A stretch of DNA of 64,000 bases from Coprothermobacter proteolyticus DSM 5265 (GTDB taxonomy: Bacteria; Coprothermobacterota; Coprothermobacteria; Coprothermobacterales; Coprothermobacteraceae), in assembly GCF_000020945.1 (NCBI RefSeq), contig NC_011295.1:992001-1056000 (forward strand), given 5' to 3'. The notes under the pieces were generated by a model. It saw nothing but the letters and a program-made list of their open reading frames with translations. It ran no database searches and was not told the DNA's origin. Each line of letters begins with the position of its first letter. The first letter of the stretch is position 1. A program made the position numbers and the translations under genes. Shown piece after piece: positions 47,727-53,870 of this stretch.

Positions 47727-47760
47727 TACCCGTATACCCCGTGGGGTATACGGGTATAAT
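47727..47760 (+). promoter_or_regulatory. CsoR/CstR-type palindromic operator at the disulfide oxidoreductase promoter
   Basis: TACCCGTATACCCC (47727-47740) and GGGGTATACGGGTA (47743-47756) are perfect 14-base arms around GT. The right arm runs into TATAAT (47755-47760), so a bound repressor would cover the -10. The core TATACCCC-GT-GGGGTATA closely resembles the palindrome at the csoR-type gene (51242-51266). Confidence 0.65.
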
Positions 47761-47794
47761 AATTTACGGAGTTATTAAAGTAGGAGGTGCCTGC

Positions 47795-48496
47795 ATGGCA
47801 ATTTTGAAAGAATCTGACAAAAAAGAGGTCCAAAAAAGACTCGCTGTCATGAACAAAACAGTAAAGGTAATTACATTTTTACCTGAAAGTGATATTATCG
47901 TGCCCGGACGTCGTGAATGTATGTACTGCAACGAAGTAAAAGAACTTATGTCAGATCTTGTGGCTACAACTGATAAACTTTCCTTAGTTTTGATCGACCC
48001 ACTAAAGCAACCTGAAACTGCTCAAGAATACGGCCTAAAGAAAGATTCGCTCGGTTTCATGTACCCAGCGATAACATTCTCTGTCTTGGAAGATGATGGA
48101 CAAGAAAAACACTACAACATTTGGTTCTATGGCATTCCTGCCGGATACGAGTTTGCAACACTTCTGGACGACATCATACTGCTTTCAACAGGTAATGTGA
48201 AACTTAATAAAGCTTTGCTACCTCAACTGGCTGCCATAAACACTAAGGTTACAATGGATGTGTTCGTAACACCTACGTGCCCCTATTGCCCCAAAGCAGT
48301 CTTCACAGCTCACCAGTTTGCTTATTTCAACCCAAATTTCACAGGAAATATGATAGAAGCCAGCGAGTTTGAAGAACTTACAAACCGCTGGAACGTCTAC
48401 GGTGTTCCAAAGACTGTCATAAACGAAAAAATAGAGGTGGAAGGTGCCGTACCAGAGAACCTGATGCTTGACTACGTCAAAAACGCACTACTCTGA
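47795..48496 (+). CDS. Protein disulfide oxidoreductase, two thioredoxin folds
   Basis: The 233-residue protein (glutaredoxin-like PDO family) has two thioredoxin domains with CMYC at 42-45 and CPYC at 162-165. PDO proteins are typical of thermophiles, where they make, reduce or shuffle disulfides in cytoplasmic proteins, often with thioredoxin reductase. ATG 47795 follows AGGAGGTGCC. The promoter overlaps a perfect palindromic operator, so expression is presumably induced by thiol, persulfide or metal stress. A terminator follows at 48526. Confidence 0.88.
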   Translation: MAILKESDKKEVQKRLAVMNKTVKVITFLPESDIIVPGRRECMYCNEVKELMSDLVATTDKLSLVLIDPLKQPETAQEYGLKKDSLGFMYPAITFSVLEDDGQEKHYNIWFYGIPAGYEFATLLDDIILLSTGNVKLNKALLPQLAAINTKVTMDVFVTPTCPYCPKAVFTAHQFAYFNPNFTGNMIEASEFEELTNRWNVYGVPKTVINEKIEVEGAVPENLMLDYVKNALL

Positions 48497-48572: not shown

Positions 48573-49082
48573 TTAGCACTGACGAGCTATTTCTTTTATG
48601 CGGTTAGATAATGTCCAAACCTTCTCGGTGTCTACATTGTCCACTGAATGAGGATCCTCACCCATGATTTGAAACAGTTCTTGAATATTTGACTTTTCTT
48701 CTTCGGTAAGCTGATCTAGATCTACAGCCCCTGGGAAATTGGCAAGAGCCAAAGGAGGCCTATCAAATAGACCCAAGTACTGTCGGACATAGATGGGTCC
48801 GCCTATTTTTCCACCATTCCATGTTCTCTCGTCTTCGATGAGACTGATAGCCACACCGGCCCACATTCTTCCATAAAGATCACTTCTGTGTGTCTGTATA
48901 AACTCCAACATGTCTGGATTTAATTTGTGATTGTACACCCCGGCAACGAAGACAATGGCATCTCCCCAAAAAGACTCCACTTGTTCCACCGATTGAGCTT
49001 CACCATCAAGTGCTTCAGCAATGGCTTCAGCATAACGCTTTGAAGCTCCATGCCTGCTAACATAAATCACCTGTACCTGCAT
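48573..49082 (-). CDS. Flavodoxin-fold protein
   Basis: The 169-residue protein has a flavodoxin-like fold, with the FMN loop seen as YVSRHGASKRYAEAIAEAL and later GDAIVFVAGVYNHKLNPDML and WAGVAISLIEDERTW. It resembles the HemG/flavodoxin_5 group. It may donate electrons to the sulfur or Fe-S proteins encoded just upstream (49085 on), with which it shares an operon with a two-base gap. The first P-loop residue run differs from the S/T-x-T-G-N-T of classical flavodoxin, so FMN binding should be tested. Confidence 0.7.
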   Translation of the reverse strand: MQVQVIYVSRHGASKRYAEAIAEALDGEAQSVEQVESFWGDAIVFVAGVYNHKLNPDMLEFIQTHRSDLYGRMWAGVAISLIEDERTWNGGKIGGPIYVRQYLGLFDRPPLALANFPGAVDLDQLTEEEKSNIQELFQIMGEDPHSVDNVDTEKVWTLSNRIKEIARQC

Positions 49083-49084
49083 CT

Positions 49085-49729
49085 CTAAAGATCACCCCTT
49101 CCCTGATTTACTACTTCAATGTCTTTTACTCCGGGCAAGTCAGAGACTTTTTCTTTTATCTCATCGATAATTTCCTGCAAATAGGGATCATCGTGAGCAA
49201 AGGAGATTTCTATTCTGACTTTCCCATCGTCAACTCCAATGTATTTTACACGCTTCAAAGACACTATGTCCAAACCCTGAGGCGGGTAAATCACATGGTA
49301 AAGTTCCTCCCGCACTAAATCGGAGCTAAGTTCTTCTTCAGGAAGACGACCCGTTTTTCTAAGATAGTCCTTGATAGCCGCTCTTAAACCGTCCACAGCA
49401 AGCACTGAACAATGGTACTTAACAGGAGGAAGTCCTCCAAGTTCCTGGACTGCCTCTGTCCACTTGATGGACAGTGCTTCTTCTAAGGTCTTCCCTTTCG
49501 CCAAATCAGTAACAATGGAAGCTGTAGCTATGTTGCTGGCACAACCGTAAGATTCAAATTTTATGTCCTCGATGACATCGTTGTTTATCTTCAAATAAAT
49601 GGCTATCTGATCCCCACATGCGGGGCTTCCCACAAGAGCTTCCGCATCAGGATTTTCTATAACCCCTTGGTTATGTGGGTTTTTAAAATGTTCAATTACT
49701 TTAGGATTGTATTTTATCGACATGCTCAA
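49085..49729 (-). CDS. IscU-type Fe-S scaffold fused to a MIP18/SufT-like domain
   Basis: The 214-residue protein has an N-terminal IscU domain with the three scaffold cysteines at C38 (SPACGDQIAI), C63 (YGCASNIA) and C107 (YHCSVLAVDGL), and a C-terminal MIP18/DUF59 domain at about 136-211 (LVREELYHVIYPPQGLDIVSLKRVKYIG). MIP18-family proteins (PaaD, SufT) help Fe-S maturation. I do not recall seeing IscU and MIP18 fused; the fusion suggests assembly and transfer in one polypeptide. It follows the NifS-like gene immediately. Confidence 0.8.
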   Translation of the reverse strand: MSMSIKYNPKVIEHFKNPHNQGVIENPDAEALVGSPACGDQIAIYLKINNDVIEDIKFESYGCASNIATASIVTDLAKGKTLEEALSIKWTEAVQELGGLPPVKYHCSVLAVDGLRAAIKDYLRKTGRLPEEELSSDLVREELYHVIYPPQGLDIVSLKRVKYIGVDDGKVRIEISFAHDDPYLQEIIDEIKEKVSDLPGVKDIEVVNQGRGDL

Positions 49730-49730
49730 A

Positions 49731-50915
49731 TCACTCCTTATAAACCTTTGGTGCTAACGGACTAATCTTGCGAAGCTTTGCCACAATACCTGGAATTACT
49801 TCCAAGAATTTGTCTACTTCTTCATCAGTGGTGGTCCACGTAAAGGTCATCCTGATGGCACCGTGAGCCCTTTCATAGTCTCCGTACATGGCAAGTATGA
49901 CGTGGTTTGCCTCTAAGAATGGATTTGCACAGGCGGAGCCAGTATCCACCGTTATATCTTCCATATCCAGGTACATCTCCACTGATTCGCCTTCCACATA
50001 TCTAAAGGTGAGACAGACATTGCTAGGCGACCTTAAGTCCCCCTCAGGACCGTTTAGCAATGTTTCTGGAACCAGTTCCATGGTTTCATTGATCAAACGA
50101 TTGCGTATGTGTTTCATGTGTTCTATCTTCTGTTCCAATCCGTCTTGCATAAGCTCCAATGCTTTTGCAGCACCCACAATGGATGGCACGTCAGGGGTAC
50201 CAGGGACAATTCTCGAATAAGCCTGACTACCGTATATGGGACCTTTTACAGGTACGCCTTTTTTCACCCACAAGGCCGTGACACCTTTTGGACCATGTAT
50301 TCTTTCTATGCTGGCCGTAATAATGTCAGCATAGGGTGCTAAAGCAAGATCTGCCAATCTTCCCAAAGCCCAGGTCAAATCATAATGAATAAGCACTTCT
50401 GGGTTTACGTCCCTAATAATCTTACTAATATCCTTAACCGGTTGAATAGTACCTACCATGTAGTTCACAGCAGCCATGGTTACAAGCACTGTGTCTTTTC
50501 CAAGACTCTCACTTAGCGCATCTAAATCCACTAAGCCGTTTGAATCCACCGGTAAGTAAGTAACCTTGATTTTCCCGAGCTTCTCAAGTTGCTTCACCAA
50601 ATCCATGGTAGTTCCGTGTTCAATAGACGTTGTTATGACGTGGGGAACCGTACCACTTTCAACGTTATTAAGTACACCCTGGATGGCAATGTTATTGGCC
50701 ACAGCGTGGCTGGGTGCAAAGTGAACCTCGTCAGGTTTTCCTCCAAAGAACTTTGCGTAAGCCATCTGGCTGTTCTCAATAGCTTCTGCTGCCGTAGTTC
50801 CGGTATAGGTAAAGGAAGACGGGGCCCAGTACTTCTCGGTCCACCATGGTATCATTTCATCAATAACACTTTTATCCACATAAGTGGATCTGCAGTGGTC
50901 AAAATAAGCTCTCAC
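49731..50915 (-). CDS. NifS/IscS-like class V aminotransferase without the PLP lysine
   Basis: The 394-residue protein is full-length NifS/IscS in layout, with IEH (H100, PLP-stacking His), HYD (D179, pyridine-N Asp), and the persulfide-carrying Cys in DTGSACANP (C329). The PLP-lysine site, normally S-x-H-K, reads SIERIHGPKG, so the lysine position is Arg (R205) and the His is Glu. The usual Gln after the Asp is also absent (D-L-T-W). Without the Schiff-base lysine it cannot be a normal cysteine desulfurase; the Archaeoglobus fulgidus IscS is a known comparable case. GTG 50915 is chosen from AGAGAGGAG about 11 bases upstream and family N-terminus. Confidence 0.8.
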   Translation of the reverse strand: MRAYFDHCRSTYVDKSVIDEMIPWWTEKYWAPSSFTYTGTTAAEAIENSQMAYAKFFGGKPDEVHFAPSHAVANNIAIQGVLNNVESGTVPHVITTSIEHGTTMDLVKQLEKLGKIKVTYLPVDSNGLVDLDALSESLGKDTVLVTMAAVNYMVGTIQPVKDISKIIRDVNPEVLIHYDLTWALGRLADLALAPYADIITASIERIHGPKGVTALWVKKGVPVKGPIYGSQAYSRIVPGTPDVPSIVGAAKALELMQDGLEQKIEHMKHIRNRLINETMELVPETLLNGPEGDLRSPSNVCLTFRYVEGESVEMYLDMEDITVDTGSACANPFLEANHVILAMYGDYERAHGAIRMTFTWTTTDEEVDKFLEVIPGIVAKLRKISPLAPKVYKE

Positions 50916-50954
50916 CTGCTCATACACTCCTCTCTGATTTACATACACATTGTT

Positions 50955-51221
50955 TTACTTACTTGTTTTTTCAATCAGGACCTGCAAAGCTTTTGATAGT
51001 TCTTCGCTGCCCTTCTCGGGTAAGCATTTAGCCATACGGTCTCGGACCATAAGAGAAACTATTTTCTTCATAAGCCCCTGCACAGCAGCAATTTGAGTAG
51101 CGACCTCAGTGCAGCAAACACCATCAGAAAGCATGCGTTCCACCGCAGAAAGTTGCCCTACAGCTGTTTTAACCATTTGAAGTACTTCATCTCCATAAGC
51201 AGGTCCGTCATTTGTTTTCAT
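50955..51221 (-). CDS. CsoR/CstR-family repressor
   Basis: The 88-residue all-helical repressor belongs to the CsoR family. Its metal triad C-H-C reads Cys36 (with Cys37 adjacent), Arg62 in place of His, and Cys66 (VRDRMAKCL). Loss of His and retention of two Cys is the pattern of CstR, which senses persulfides rather than Cu(I). It is the first gene of an operon with the NifS-like, IscU-MIP18 and flavodoxin proteins, and its promoter has a perfect palindrome. A GGTGAT site is the likely ribosome site. Identity to CstR is inferred, not proven. Confidence 0.78.
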   Translation of the reverse strand: MKTNDGPAYGDEVLQMVKTAVGQLSAVERMLSDGVCCTEVATQIAAVQGLMKKIVSLMVRDRMAKCLPEKGSEELSKALQVLIEKTSK

Positions 51222-51300: not shown

Positions 51301-51879
51301 CTAACTAACTTGGTAGCCTAAATCAAAAGCCTTTAAGTTGTTTTCGAGGTCTCTTGGCAGCACTTCTTCAAGCGCTTTTTCAATGACTTCTTTGGGAAGT
51401 AAGAATGACAGTACAGAAGCAGACTTTCCCAGCATGACACTGTTCACGTAAATGGTACTTCCCAGGCTCTTTGCCAAGGCCGTAGCATCAAACATATGAC
51501 AAGGCCCAAACTCCTCTAGGTTTTTGCGAATCTCTTCTAACGACGGATAGACAGTGCTACCCAGGTTTGCCGATACAGGAACCATCTTAGCCTCGTTCAC
51601 TATGAATGTGGTACCTTTTTTAGCATAGTTTATGTAGCGAATGGCTTCTAGTGGCTCAAAAGAGAGAAGCAAATCTGCAGTACCCTCTGGTACTGTGGAG
51701 GCAACAGGATTTTCCGAAATACGAACAAAACCAATAACTGAGCCCCCTCTTTGAGCTAAACCGTGAATTTCACCCACTGCGGCATAGTAGCCTGCCATCA
51801 TTGCGGCTTTTCCCAAAACCTTCGCGGCAGTAAGTATGCCTTGACCACCTACGCCAGTTAAAACAATGTTGTATACCAC
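51301..51879 (-). CDS. iorB: Indolepyruvate:ferredoxin oxidoreductase beta subunit
   Basis: The 192-residue gamma/beta-type subunit reads NIVLTGVGGQGILTAAKVLGKAA at its start and EIHGLAQRGGSVIGFVRI, the hallmark of IorB and related 2-oxoacid oxidoreductases. It transfers the acyl-CoA-forming electrons to ferredoxin in aromatic amino acid degradation. GTG 51879 is selected because GAGG lies eight bases upstream; GTG 51888 is also possible. It overlaps iorA by about 22 bases. Confidence 0.9.
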   Translation of the reverse strand: MVYNIVLTGVGGQGILTAAKVLGKAAMMAGYYAAVGEIHGLAQRGGSVIGFVRISENPVASTVPEGTADLLLSFEPLEAIRYINYAKKGTTFIVNEAKMVPVSANLGSTVYPSLEEIRKNLEEFGPCHMFDATALAKSLGSTIYVNSVMLGKSASVLSFLLPKEVIEKALEEVLPRDLENNLKAFDLGYQVS

Positions 51880-53774
51880 TGCTGCCACCTCGCTCTCGAT
51901 TCGTCACTCACAACATCAAAGTTCTTCTCCCCTTCAATGCTCTTCTCGTAAATGGCATTGTAAGGGCACACTTGTGCGCAGGCAGAACAACCCGCACAAA
52001 GATCTTCGTCAATGGAAACTTTCTTTTTGTCTCGGTCGAAAACCAAGGCTGGGCAACCCAGCAGGTTCACACACACCCTACACCCAGTACATTTTTCTTC
52101 TTCTACTGCGTACAGAGGAGCACGTTCTCCTCTTCTTTGAAGTTGCCTCTGCCTTAGCAGTGCACATGGCTGTTTAGCCACAATAACAGCCACGGTATAT
52201 TCGTTTGCTTCCTTAATAGCCTCTTCCAAAGCCTGTAAATCGTATGGATCCACAGATTTTACATAATCAACACCCAGCCCACGAGCTACCTGCTCTATAT
52301 CCAAGTGAGCACCAATGTCACCAGAAGCTGTTATACCCGTAGATGGGTTAGGTTGATGGCCTGTCATAGCTGTGATACGGTTATCCAATACGATGAGTGT
52401 GAGTTTGCTCCTGTTATATACTGCGTTCACCAAAGCAGGCAAACCCGTATGGAAAAATGTGCTGTCACCTATGGTAGAAATGACCCTTTCCTCCTGAGCC
52501 TTTGCCATACCGCTCCCCAAGCCTACCGATGCGCCCATAGCAATACATGTATCAATAGCTTTTAATGGATCCAATGCACCTAAGGTATAACAACCAATGT
52601 CTGAGGGTTTAACAGATTTCCTTTCCGTTTTCTTAACCATGTAAAAAACGTTTCTATGCGCACAGCCTGGACAAAGCACTGGAGGTCGAGGAGGAAGTGA
52701 AGGCACCTGAGCTATTTGTGGCTCTGTCACTGGTAGGTTCAGAATCCTTTCTAGAGCATTGCGGACTTTCCAGTAATTAAGCTCGTCAACTCTGGGGAGC
52801 ACGTCTTTCCCATGCACCGGCACGCTCAACCCTGCTTCGTAAAGTATTGCTTTGATCATTTCTTCCAAAAATGGTTCTAGCTCCTCTACCACCAGCAAGA
52901 CATCCAACTGTTTGGCAAACTCAACTATCAATTCTTTATCCAGCGGATAAACCATGCCCAGTTTAAGTATGTTTAACTGGGTGCCTAAGTCACGTTCCGC
53001 TTCCTTTACATAGAGATACTCCACGCCCTGTGTGATTACGCCAACTTTACCTGACCCTTCTAACCTATTGAGCTCATGGTTACGTGAAAAACTGATAGCT
53101 TGGTCCAACCGCTGCAGCACTTTAGGATGATTTTTCTTGGCGTTGGCTGGTAAACTTACGAACCTGACAATGTCGGGCTTAAAAGTTCCCTTCCTCCGGT
53201 TTCCTTGCCTAACGTTTTCACCTAACGAGGAAAACGTTACAGGACTTCGCGTATGACTAACTCGGGTTGTACTCCTTAGAAGAACCGGTGCACCAATCGA
53301 TTCACTAAGTTCGAAAGCTATCTTAGTAAAATCTTTAGCCTCCTGAGGATCTGAAGGAACAAGTACAGGAACTCCTGCGAATTTGCCGAAAATTCGGTTA
53401 TCTTGCTCGTTTTGTGAACTCCACATTCCTGGATCGTCAGCGGTCAAAATCACTAAGCCTGCTACCGCTCCCTGATAGGCAAGCGACATGAACGTATCTG
53501 CTGCAACATTAAGCCCTACATGTTTCATGGTTGCCATGGCTCTTAGGTTTGACCACGAAAAAGCCGTAGCCACTTCCAGGGCAACCTTTTCATTTGTAGA
53601 GTATTCCACATATACACCCGTCTCCTTCGCATATTTGCTCAACGTCTCGGTGACCTCTGTGGAAGGAGTTCCCGGATAAGCGGCTACGCATGCTACATCC
53701 GCTTCCAAAGCCCCCCTAGCAATGGCTTCATTACCTAACAAAAGATCAGAGCCCGTTTCATCTAGAAATGACAT
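51858..53774 (-). CDS. iorA: Indolepyruvate:ferredoxin oxidoreductase alpha subunit
   Basis: This 638-residue subunit binds TPP and Fe-S clusters and oxidises aryl pyruvates to aryl-acetyl-CoA. The N-terminal pyrimidine-binding part (AAYPGTPSTEVTETL), the TPP motif GDSTFFHTGLPALVNAVYN, and two C-terminal [4Fe-4S] ferredoxin motifs (CTGCRVCVNLLGC and CAGCSACAQVCPYN) are seen in the family order. CPGCAHRNVFY is also typical. ATG 53774 follows GGAGGTGAACTTA. It indicates peptide and amino acid fermentation. Confidence 0.95.
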   Translation of the reverse strand: MSFLDETGSDLLLGNEAIARGALEADVACVAAYPGTPSTEVTETLSKYAKETGVYVEYSTNEKVALEVATAFSWSNLRAMATMKHVGLNVAADTFMSLAYQGAVAGLVILTADDPGMWSSQNEQDNRIFGKFAGVPVLVPSDPQEAKDFTKIAFELSESIGAPVLLRSTTRVSHTRSPVTFSSLGENVRQGNRRKGTFKPDIVRFVSLPANAKKNHPKVLQRLDQAISFSRNHELNRLEGSGKVGVITQGVEYLYVKEAERDLGTQLNILKLGMVYPLDKELIVEFAKQLDVLLVVEELEPFLEEMIKAILYEAGLSVPVHGKDVLPRVDELNYWKVRNALERILNLPVTEPQIAQVPSLPPRPPVLCPGCAHRNVFYMVKKTERKSVKPSDIGCYTLGALDPLKAIDTCIAMGASVGLGSGMAKAQEERVISTIGDSTFFHTGLPALVNAVYNRSKLTLIVLDNRITAMTGHQPNPSTGITASGDIGAHLDIEQVARGLGVDYVKSVDPYDLQALEEAIKEANEYTVAVIVAKQPCALLRQRQLQRRGERAPLYAVEEEKCTGCRVCVNLLGCPALVFDRDKKKVSIDEDLCAGCSACAQVCPYNAIYEKSIEGEKNFDVVSDESRARWQQWYTTLF

Positions 53775-53870
53775 TAAGTTCACCTCCACTTAACATTGTA
53801 CTACCCTTTCTTCGGCGTGTTAGAATCTAAAGTAGTTAATATAACCACCAATCAAAATAAGGAGGTACTA

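Follow-up and report, generated by a model that had tools for sequence, protein, structure and literature searches.

In the 64,000-nucleotide stretch of DNA that we analysed (the window), from the heat-loving anaerobe Coprothermobacter proteolyticus, we find an IscS/NifS-type class V protein in which arginine stands at the site of the PLP lysine and in which, as read from an alignment, the loss extends past that lysine to nearly the whole PLP pocket. With slightly better than even confidence, and by analogy with Archaeoglobus fulgidus, we propose that this is a PLP-less IscS acting as a co-scaffold for IscU, to which it would lend a cysteine for clusters built from sulfide; within this proposal we infer the absence of PLP, sulfide as the donor and the ligand role of Cys329. 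Lysine-less IscS is already known from A. fulgidus, and the Arg form described here is a variant of that kind. The gene and its neighbours are listed in Table 1.

Table 1. The iscS(Arg) gene, its site residues and the adjoining genes, in window coordinates.
Feature	Position	Strand	Details
IscS/NifS-type class V protein, Arg205 at the PLP-lysine site	49731..50915	-	394 aa, GTG start
Glu204 (50306-50304) and Arg205 (50303-50301, AGA)	50301..50306	-	canonical His-Lys position, from alignment
Cys329, persulfide or ligand cysteine, in loop DTGSACANPFLEANH	49929..49931	-	invariant, 61/61 aligned rows
IscU scaffold (NifU_N) with C-terminal FeS_assembly_P domain (DUF59/MIP18-like)	49085..49723	-	Pfam 146 and 37 bits
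Flavodoxin-domain protein, final gene of the cluster	48573..49082	-	Flavodoxin_5 106.6 bits
CsoR-family repressor	50955..51221	-	Pfam Trns_repr_metal 56.3 bits
iorB (51301-51888) and iorA (51858-53789), indolepyruvate:ferredoxin oxidoreductase subunits	51301..53789	-	upstream neighbours

The GTG start codon lies at 50915, whereas the longer mechanical open reading frame begins at 50948; the shorter form is supported by an orthologue (L012) with stop codons immediately ahead of VRAYFDH. With this numbering, the positions that a first-pass annotation of the same DNA had given for E204-R205, C329, H100 and D179 are confirmed. So is the glutamine it had reported missing after Asp179: the D+3 position is Trp182, and Gln occupies it in 44 of the 44 Lys-type proteins of our 61-row alignment. 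The further claim that no normal internal aldimine could form holds as far as the residue at the lysine site can indicate. Among the features of an active IscS/NifS cysteine desulfurase, the fold and the mobile-loop Cys (C329 in GSACAN) are present but the PLP lysine is not. Pfam Aminotran_5 matches the protein at 165.5 bits, the best NCBIfam match is NifS (TIGR03402) at 320.9 bits, below the cut-off of 530.75, and the AF2 model has a normal fold with a pLDDT of 92.6.

The arginine is shared by related genomes. SIERIHGPKG or SVERIHGPKG occurs in three others (G003, G001 and G004, with 91%, 83% and 73% identity to the window protein), which we group with the window's own genome (G000) as the first family, and a sister family of the same order, at about 50% identity, has DAHRIHGPKN or DAHRIHGPRN in two genomes. 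Only the first family has Glu in place of His; its sister retains that His and is without His100. The Glu-Arg codons of the four first-family genomes are GAAAGA, GAAAGG, GAAAGG and GAACGC, and dN/dS is 0.036 for the pair G000-G003 and 0.053 for G005-G006: the window gene and its orthologues are under purifying selection. That the arginine reflects a sequencing error, or the gene a decaying pseudogene, has a negligible probability, and we found no point in its favour; six orthologues with Arg, three distinct Arg codons, dN/dS of about 0.04-0.05 and a confident predicted fold all speak against it, and we regard it as ruled out by the orthologues, the codon variety and dN/dS. A chance motif was likewise rejected, Lys standing at the site in 78 of the 80 best loci, with Asp in L116 and Gln in L109 as the exceptions.

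To gauge how far the loss extends, we took as near-invariant the columns of the 61-protein alignment in which at least 95% of the 44 Lys-type rows share one residue (58 columns), and used the Lys-type proteins, each row left out in turn, as controls. The window protein has lost 20 of the 58, compared with a mean of 1.5 and a maximum of 5 in the controls. Losses amount to 23 in both G004 and G005, 10 in A. fulgidus IscS, 11 in an archaeal relative, L116, and 6-9 in a second bacterial lysine-less lineage. Taking the PLP-contact and pocket roles of residues to be those of E. coli IscS, the phosphate and ring contacts (Thr, His, Gln, Thr') are not kept (T71A, H204E, Q182W), and to the changes in the first-pass annotation we add T67A, E72V, N152Y, G230S, R237V and others. 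T240 is present in the window protein and gone from G004 and the sister family. Arg355, which binds the cysteine carboxylate in active IscS, is retained in the window protein, and D179, H100, N151 and Arg355 are retained across the first family.

The Cys loop is kept to a far greater degree. Between the two families, segment 321-345 is 84% identical, compared with 38% around the lysine site and 35-43% in each of three further segments from the middle of the protein, and C329 with its loop GSACANPFL is invariant. The pocket differs from one family to the other (Glu-Arg versus His-Arg, His100 versus Ala, Trp182 versus Arg), as would be expected of a site freed from its old constraint. A purely regulatory or structural role, in which the protein would stabilise IscU and C329 would have no chemical function, would agree with the degenerate active site and the co-encoding with IscU; we consider it highly improbable in view of a cysteine and loop that stay invariant across two families so divergent elsewhere.

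The gene iscU sits 7 bp downstream of iscS(Arg). Its product retains the scaffold site of three Cys and an Asp (in SPACGD, GCAS and HCSV) as well as the LPPVK motif. The fusion of IscU to FeS_assembly_P is common to both families, and the Cys that a SufT-type protein should have appears to be missing from the FeS_assembly_P domain. The first-family order is iorA, iorB, CsoR-family gene, iscS(Arg), iscU and flavodoxin: both the ior order and the flavodoxin gene after iscU recur in G001, G003 and G004, and the CsoR-family gene precedes iscS in G001 and G003, only matching C-terminal sequence being seen in G004. IOR_alpha scores 779.6 bits, over its cut-off, and IOR_beta 186.8 bits, slightly under. 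The flavodoxin-domain protein is a possible electron donor. A gene for a protein disulfide oxidoreductase, on the opposite strand at 47741-48496, adjoins the cluster in every first-family genome seen.

The CsoR-family repressor has the conserved Cys and has Arg at the position of the His in copper-type CsoR; the nearest solved chain, 7mq1_A, is likewise without that His. It resembles the persulfide-sensing CstR, and it may function in the same way. This resemblance touches on the main rival to a co-scaffold, namely a persulfide relay in which Cys329 would not generate persulfide itself but would accept sulfane sulfur (from thiosulfate, polysulfide, a rhodanese or the other desulfurase of the cell) and pass it to IscU. 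The CstR-like Cys pattern directly upstream is a hint in that direction, and a relay would also be consistent with the Cys loop and C329 being the best-kept part of the protein, with the thiosulfate reduction of C. proteolyticus, and with the presence in the window's genome of L001 (G000:C1:209400-210494), a Lys- and Cys-bearing class V desulfurase-like gene that adjoins a YedF/TusA-like gene. G001 carries a comparable gene. In these two genomes, persulfide could thus come from outside the protein, which counts against a co-scaffold fed by sulfide. A ligand role for the cysteine, however, would explain the kept loop equally well, and no counterpart of L001 or other desulfurase homologue was found in G004-G006, so that the donor there would have to be non-cysteine sulfur. 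On balance we think a relay unlikely, while giving it more weight than the other alternatives to a co-scaffold.

The view that the protein serves as a co-scaffold draws on the lost pocket beside the kept Cys loop, on the purifying selection and on the shared operon with IscU, and also on the wider gene content of the phylum. SufB/D (PF01458) was found in 0 of 9 phylum genomes, with 14 of 14 positive controls recovered; an A-type carrier (PF01521) was found in none of the 9, and an Nfu domain (PF01106) in none of the first- and sister-family genomes. IscU (NifU_N) was found in six genomes, each with a single copy adjoining iscS(Arg), and both families have a minimal IscS-IscU pair without SUF, A-type or Nfu genes. 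In G004, G005 and G006, no second class V protein scored above 34 bits and no canonical IscS, SufS or relative was seen, absences that are not absolute at completeness values of 95%, 93% and 87%, respectively. All three genomes encode MnmA, and the MnmA proteins read have a CxxC motif and belong to the C-type class. Thiolases of this group have been discussed as [4Fe-4S]-dependent, and as possibly sulfide-fed in methanogens that have no desulfurases (PMC10067955). In G007 and G008, which represent another family of the same phylum, Lys-type class V desulfurase-like genes are present, and neither SufB/D nor IscU was matched; G008 has an Nfu-domain gene.

The closest structural counterpart is the A. 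fulgidus protein, which the first-pass annotation had named as a known lysine-less case. By sequence, the top PDB matches are the IscS and IscS-IscU structures of A. fulgidus, and the best fold match (Foldseek) is 4eb7_A, from the IscS-IscU complex, with TM 0.91/0.95. Both proteins (4eb5/4eb7/4hvk for A. fulgidus) have the Type I IscS fold, have lost the PLP lysine and the Gln, keep the Cys, and are paired with an IscU bearing, here, three Cys and an Asp. They differ in that A. fulgidus, an archaeon, has Asp199 where Arg stands here, has a mostly intact pocket, and has Leu in place of the substrate Arg that is kept here. A. fulgidus IscS is described as having no desulfurase activity and as contributing one of its cysteines, as a ligand, to the [2Fe-2S] cluster that forms on IscU (PMC7585200; Pagnier 2015 as cited in PMC8617193). 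Methanosarcina acetivorans IscS1 is also without the PLP lysine (PMC7585200), and a MIS (MisS/MisU) system is named in PMC12442378. The likeness here lies in an IscS-IscU pair without accessory factors and in the lysine missing from IscS1; unlike the Coprothermobacter genomes, where no SufB/D was found, M. acetivorans possesses, besides IscS1, the proven desulfurase IscS2 together with IscS3 and SufBC homologues. The NifS-like protein 1ecx and canonical NifS/IscS share the fold (TM 0.90) and the Cys loop with the window protein, and differ in having the PLP lysine, the Gln, the His and the phosphate-site residues.

Retention of D179, H100, N151 and the substrate Arg355 in the first family might instead point to PLP bound non-covalently, with slow desulfuration or another PLP reaction for which Arg205 or His100 would supply the acid-base function, the more so as A. 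fulgidus IscS, with Asp at the site, folds like the active enzymes. We judge this improbable. T67, E72, N152, Q182, H204, G230 and R237 are gone, H100 and T240 are gone from the sister family as well, and A. fulgidus IscS, whose pocket is far better kept, is reported to be inactive (PMC7585200). Arg355, which the other two lysine-less lineages do not keep, suggests that a ligand may still bind, and this counts against the co-scaffold proposal. Of the roles raised in the first-pass annotation, an assembly platform or persulfide carrier stands as a possibility as far as comparison of residues can take it, while nothing supports a different cofactor.

What leads us to favour a PLP-free IscS that works with sulfide as a cluster-ligand partner is the combination of the A. 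fulgidus precedent with two further observations: H2S allows E. coli that has no IscS to resume anaerobic cluster assembly, in an IscU-dependent manner (PMC13015791), and C. proteolyticus forms sulfide by reducing thiosulfate (PMC10356935). Under this model, the protein would descend from a cysteine desulfurase that lost its PLP enzyme function and became permanently paired with the IscU of the adjacent gene. The dimer would hold IscU, and the mobile loop would bring Cys329 to the IscU site as a fourth cysteine ligand for the nascent [2Fe-2S] cluster, in the manner described for A. fulgidus. The sulfur source would be free sulfide, expected to be plentiful in thiosulfate-reducing, protein-fermenting anaerobes, and IscS(Arg) with IscU(-DUF59) would constitute the main, perhaps the only, de novo Fe-S assembly machine of the cell.

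In the textbook scheme, bacteria begin to assemble an Fe-S cluster by having a PLP enzyme desulfurate cysteine. The order described here, in whose genomes no SUF genes were found, appears to rely on an IscS that no longer has a PLP site and whose IscU-facing Cys loop is frozen. It is conceivable, though we hold it with somewhat less than even confidence, that the Coprothermobacter order has abandoned cysteine desulfuration for Fe-S assembly altogether, with the PLP-free IscS and IscU-DUF59 as its sole machine on inorganic sulfide, and with even tRNA thiolation by C-type MnmA run on sulfide in those lineages where there is no canonical desulfurase. If confirmed, this would separate the two roles of IscS, as sulfur donor and as cluster-building partner, and would allow the second to be studied alone in a bacterium. 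It would also support the view that building Fe-S clusters from sulfide is a strategy still in use among sulfide-rich anaerobes, with a bearing on how clusters were made before oxygen.

The suggestion in the first-pass annotation that the protein is one of a larger set of IscS proteins without the lysine is supported by the sequences: the lysine is also missing from a second bacterial lineage, which has Arg, Ser or Gln there, and from an archaeal one (Asp). A reading of this motif across 386 genomes, with family codes up to f258, found lysine-less IscS in family f14 and in G265 (Arg), and in G123 (Ser). Arg is present in all 26 near-full f14 copies read besides L025. The Arg-motif pattern in 12 genomes also returned false candidates: L184, L185 and L189 are unrelated frames, and L178 carries Ser, the pattern MGN covering AGY as well. 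IscU adjoins the lysine-less IscS in f14 and G123. SufB/D was found in none of the 30 f14 genomes searched and is present in G265, and none was seen in G123 at 85% completeness. The f14 genomes searched also encode a second homologue, of Lys type in the three copies read, and in retaining it alongside the lysine-less copy they differ from the window's group.

In a tree built without the pocket columns, the best topology has three lysine-less clades, comprising the window's order (100/100), A. fulgidus with L116 (99/96) and the second bacterial lineage of f14, G265, G123 and L109 (99/99). A. fulgidus IscS does not group with the window protein, yet a single origin of lysine-less IscS is not rejected (p-AU 0.286). 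The second bacterial lineage resembles the window protein in its replaced Lys and kept Cys, and differs in its separate clade, its fewer lost columns and its loss of Arg355. In both it and the archaeal pair, the substrate Arg is lost and the PLP pocket mostly retained, the reverse of the window's group. A claim of linked loss of Lys and Gln was considered and dropped: the two losses co-occur in all lysine-less lineages except L109, but the tree yields only 2-3 independent pairs, too small a number to test the link. L109 itself (bacterium SZUA-191, 560-1702) has Ser-Gln for His-Lys, retains the Gln at D+3 and groups with the second lysine-less lineage; it may represent either a recent loss of the lysine or a sequencing error. 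By eye, the lysine-less IscS of G265 (L199, 6258-9450) adjoins a likely ATP sulfurylase gene, and that of the archaeal L116 (4506-6593) lies behind a DsrE-like gene.
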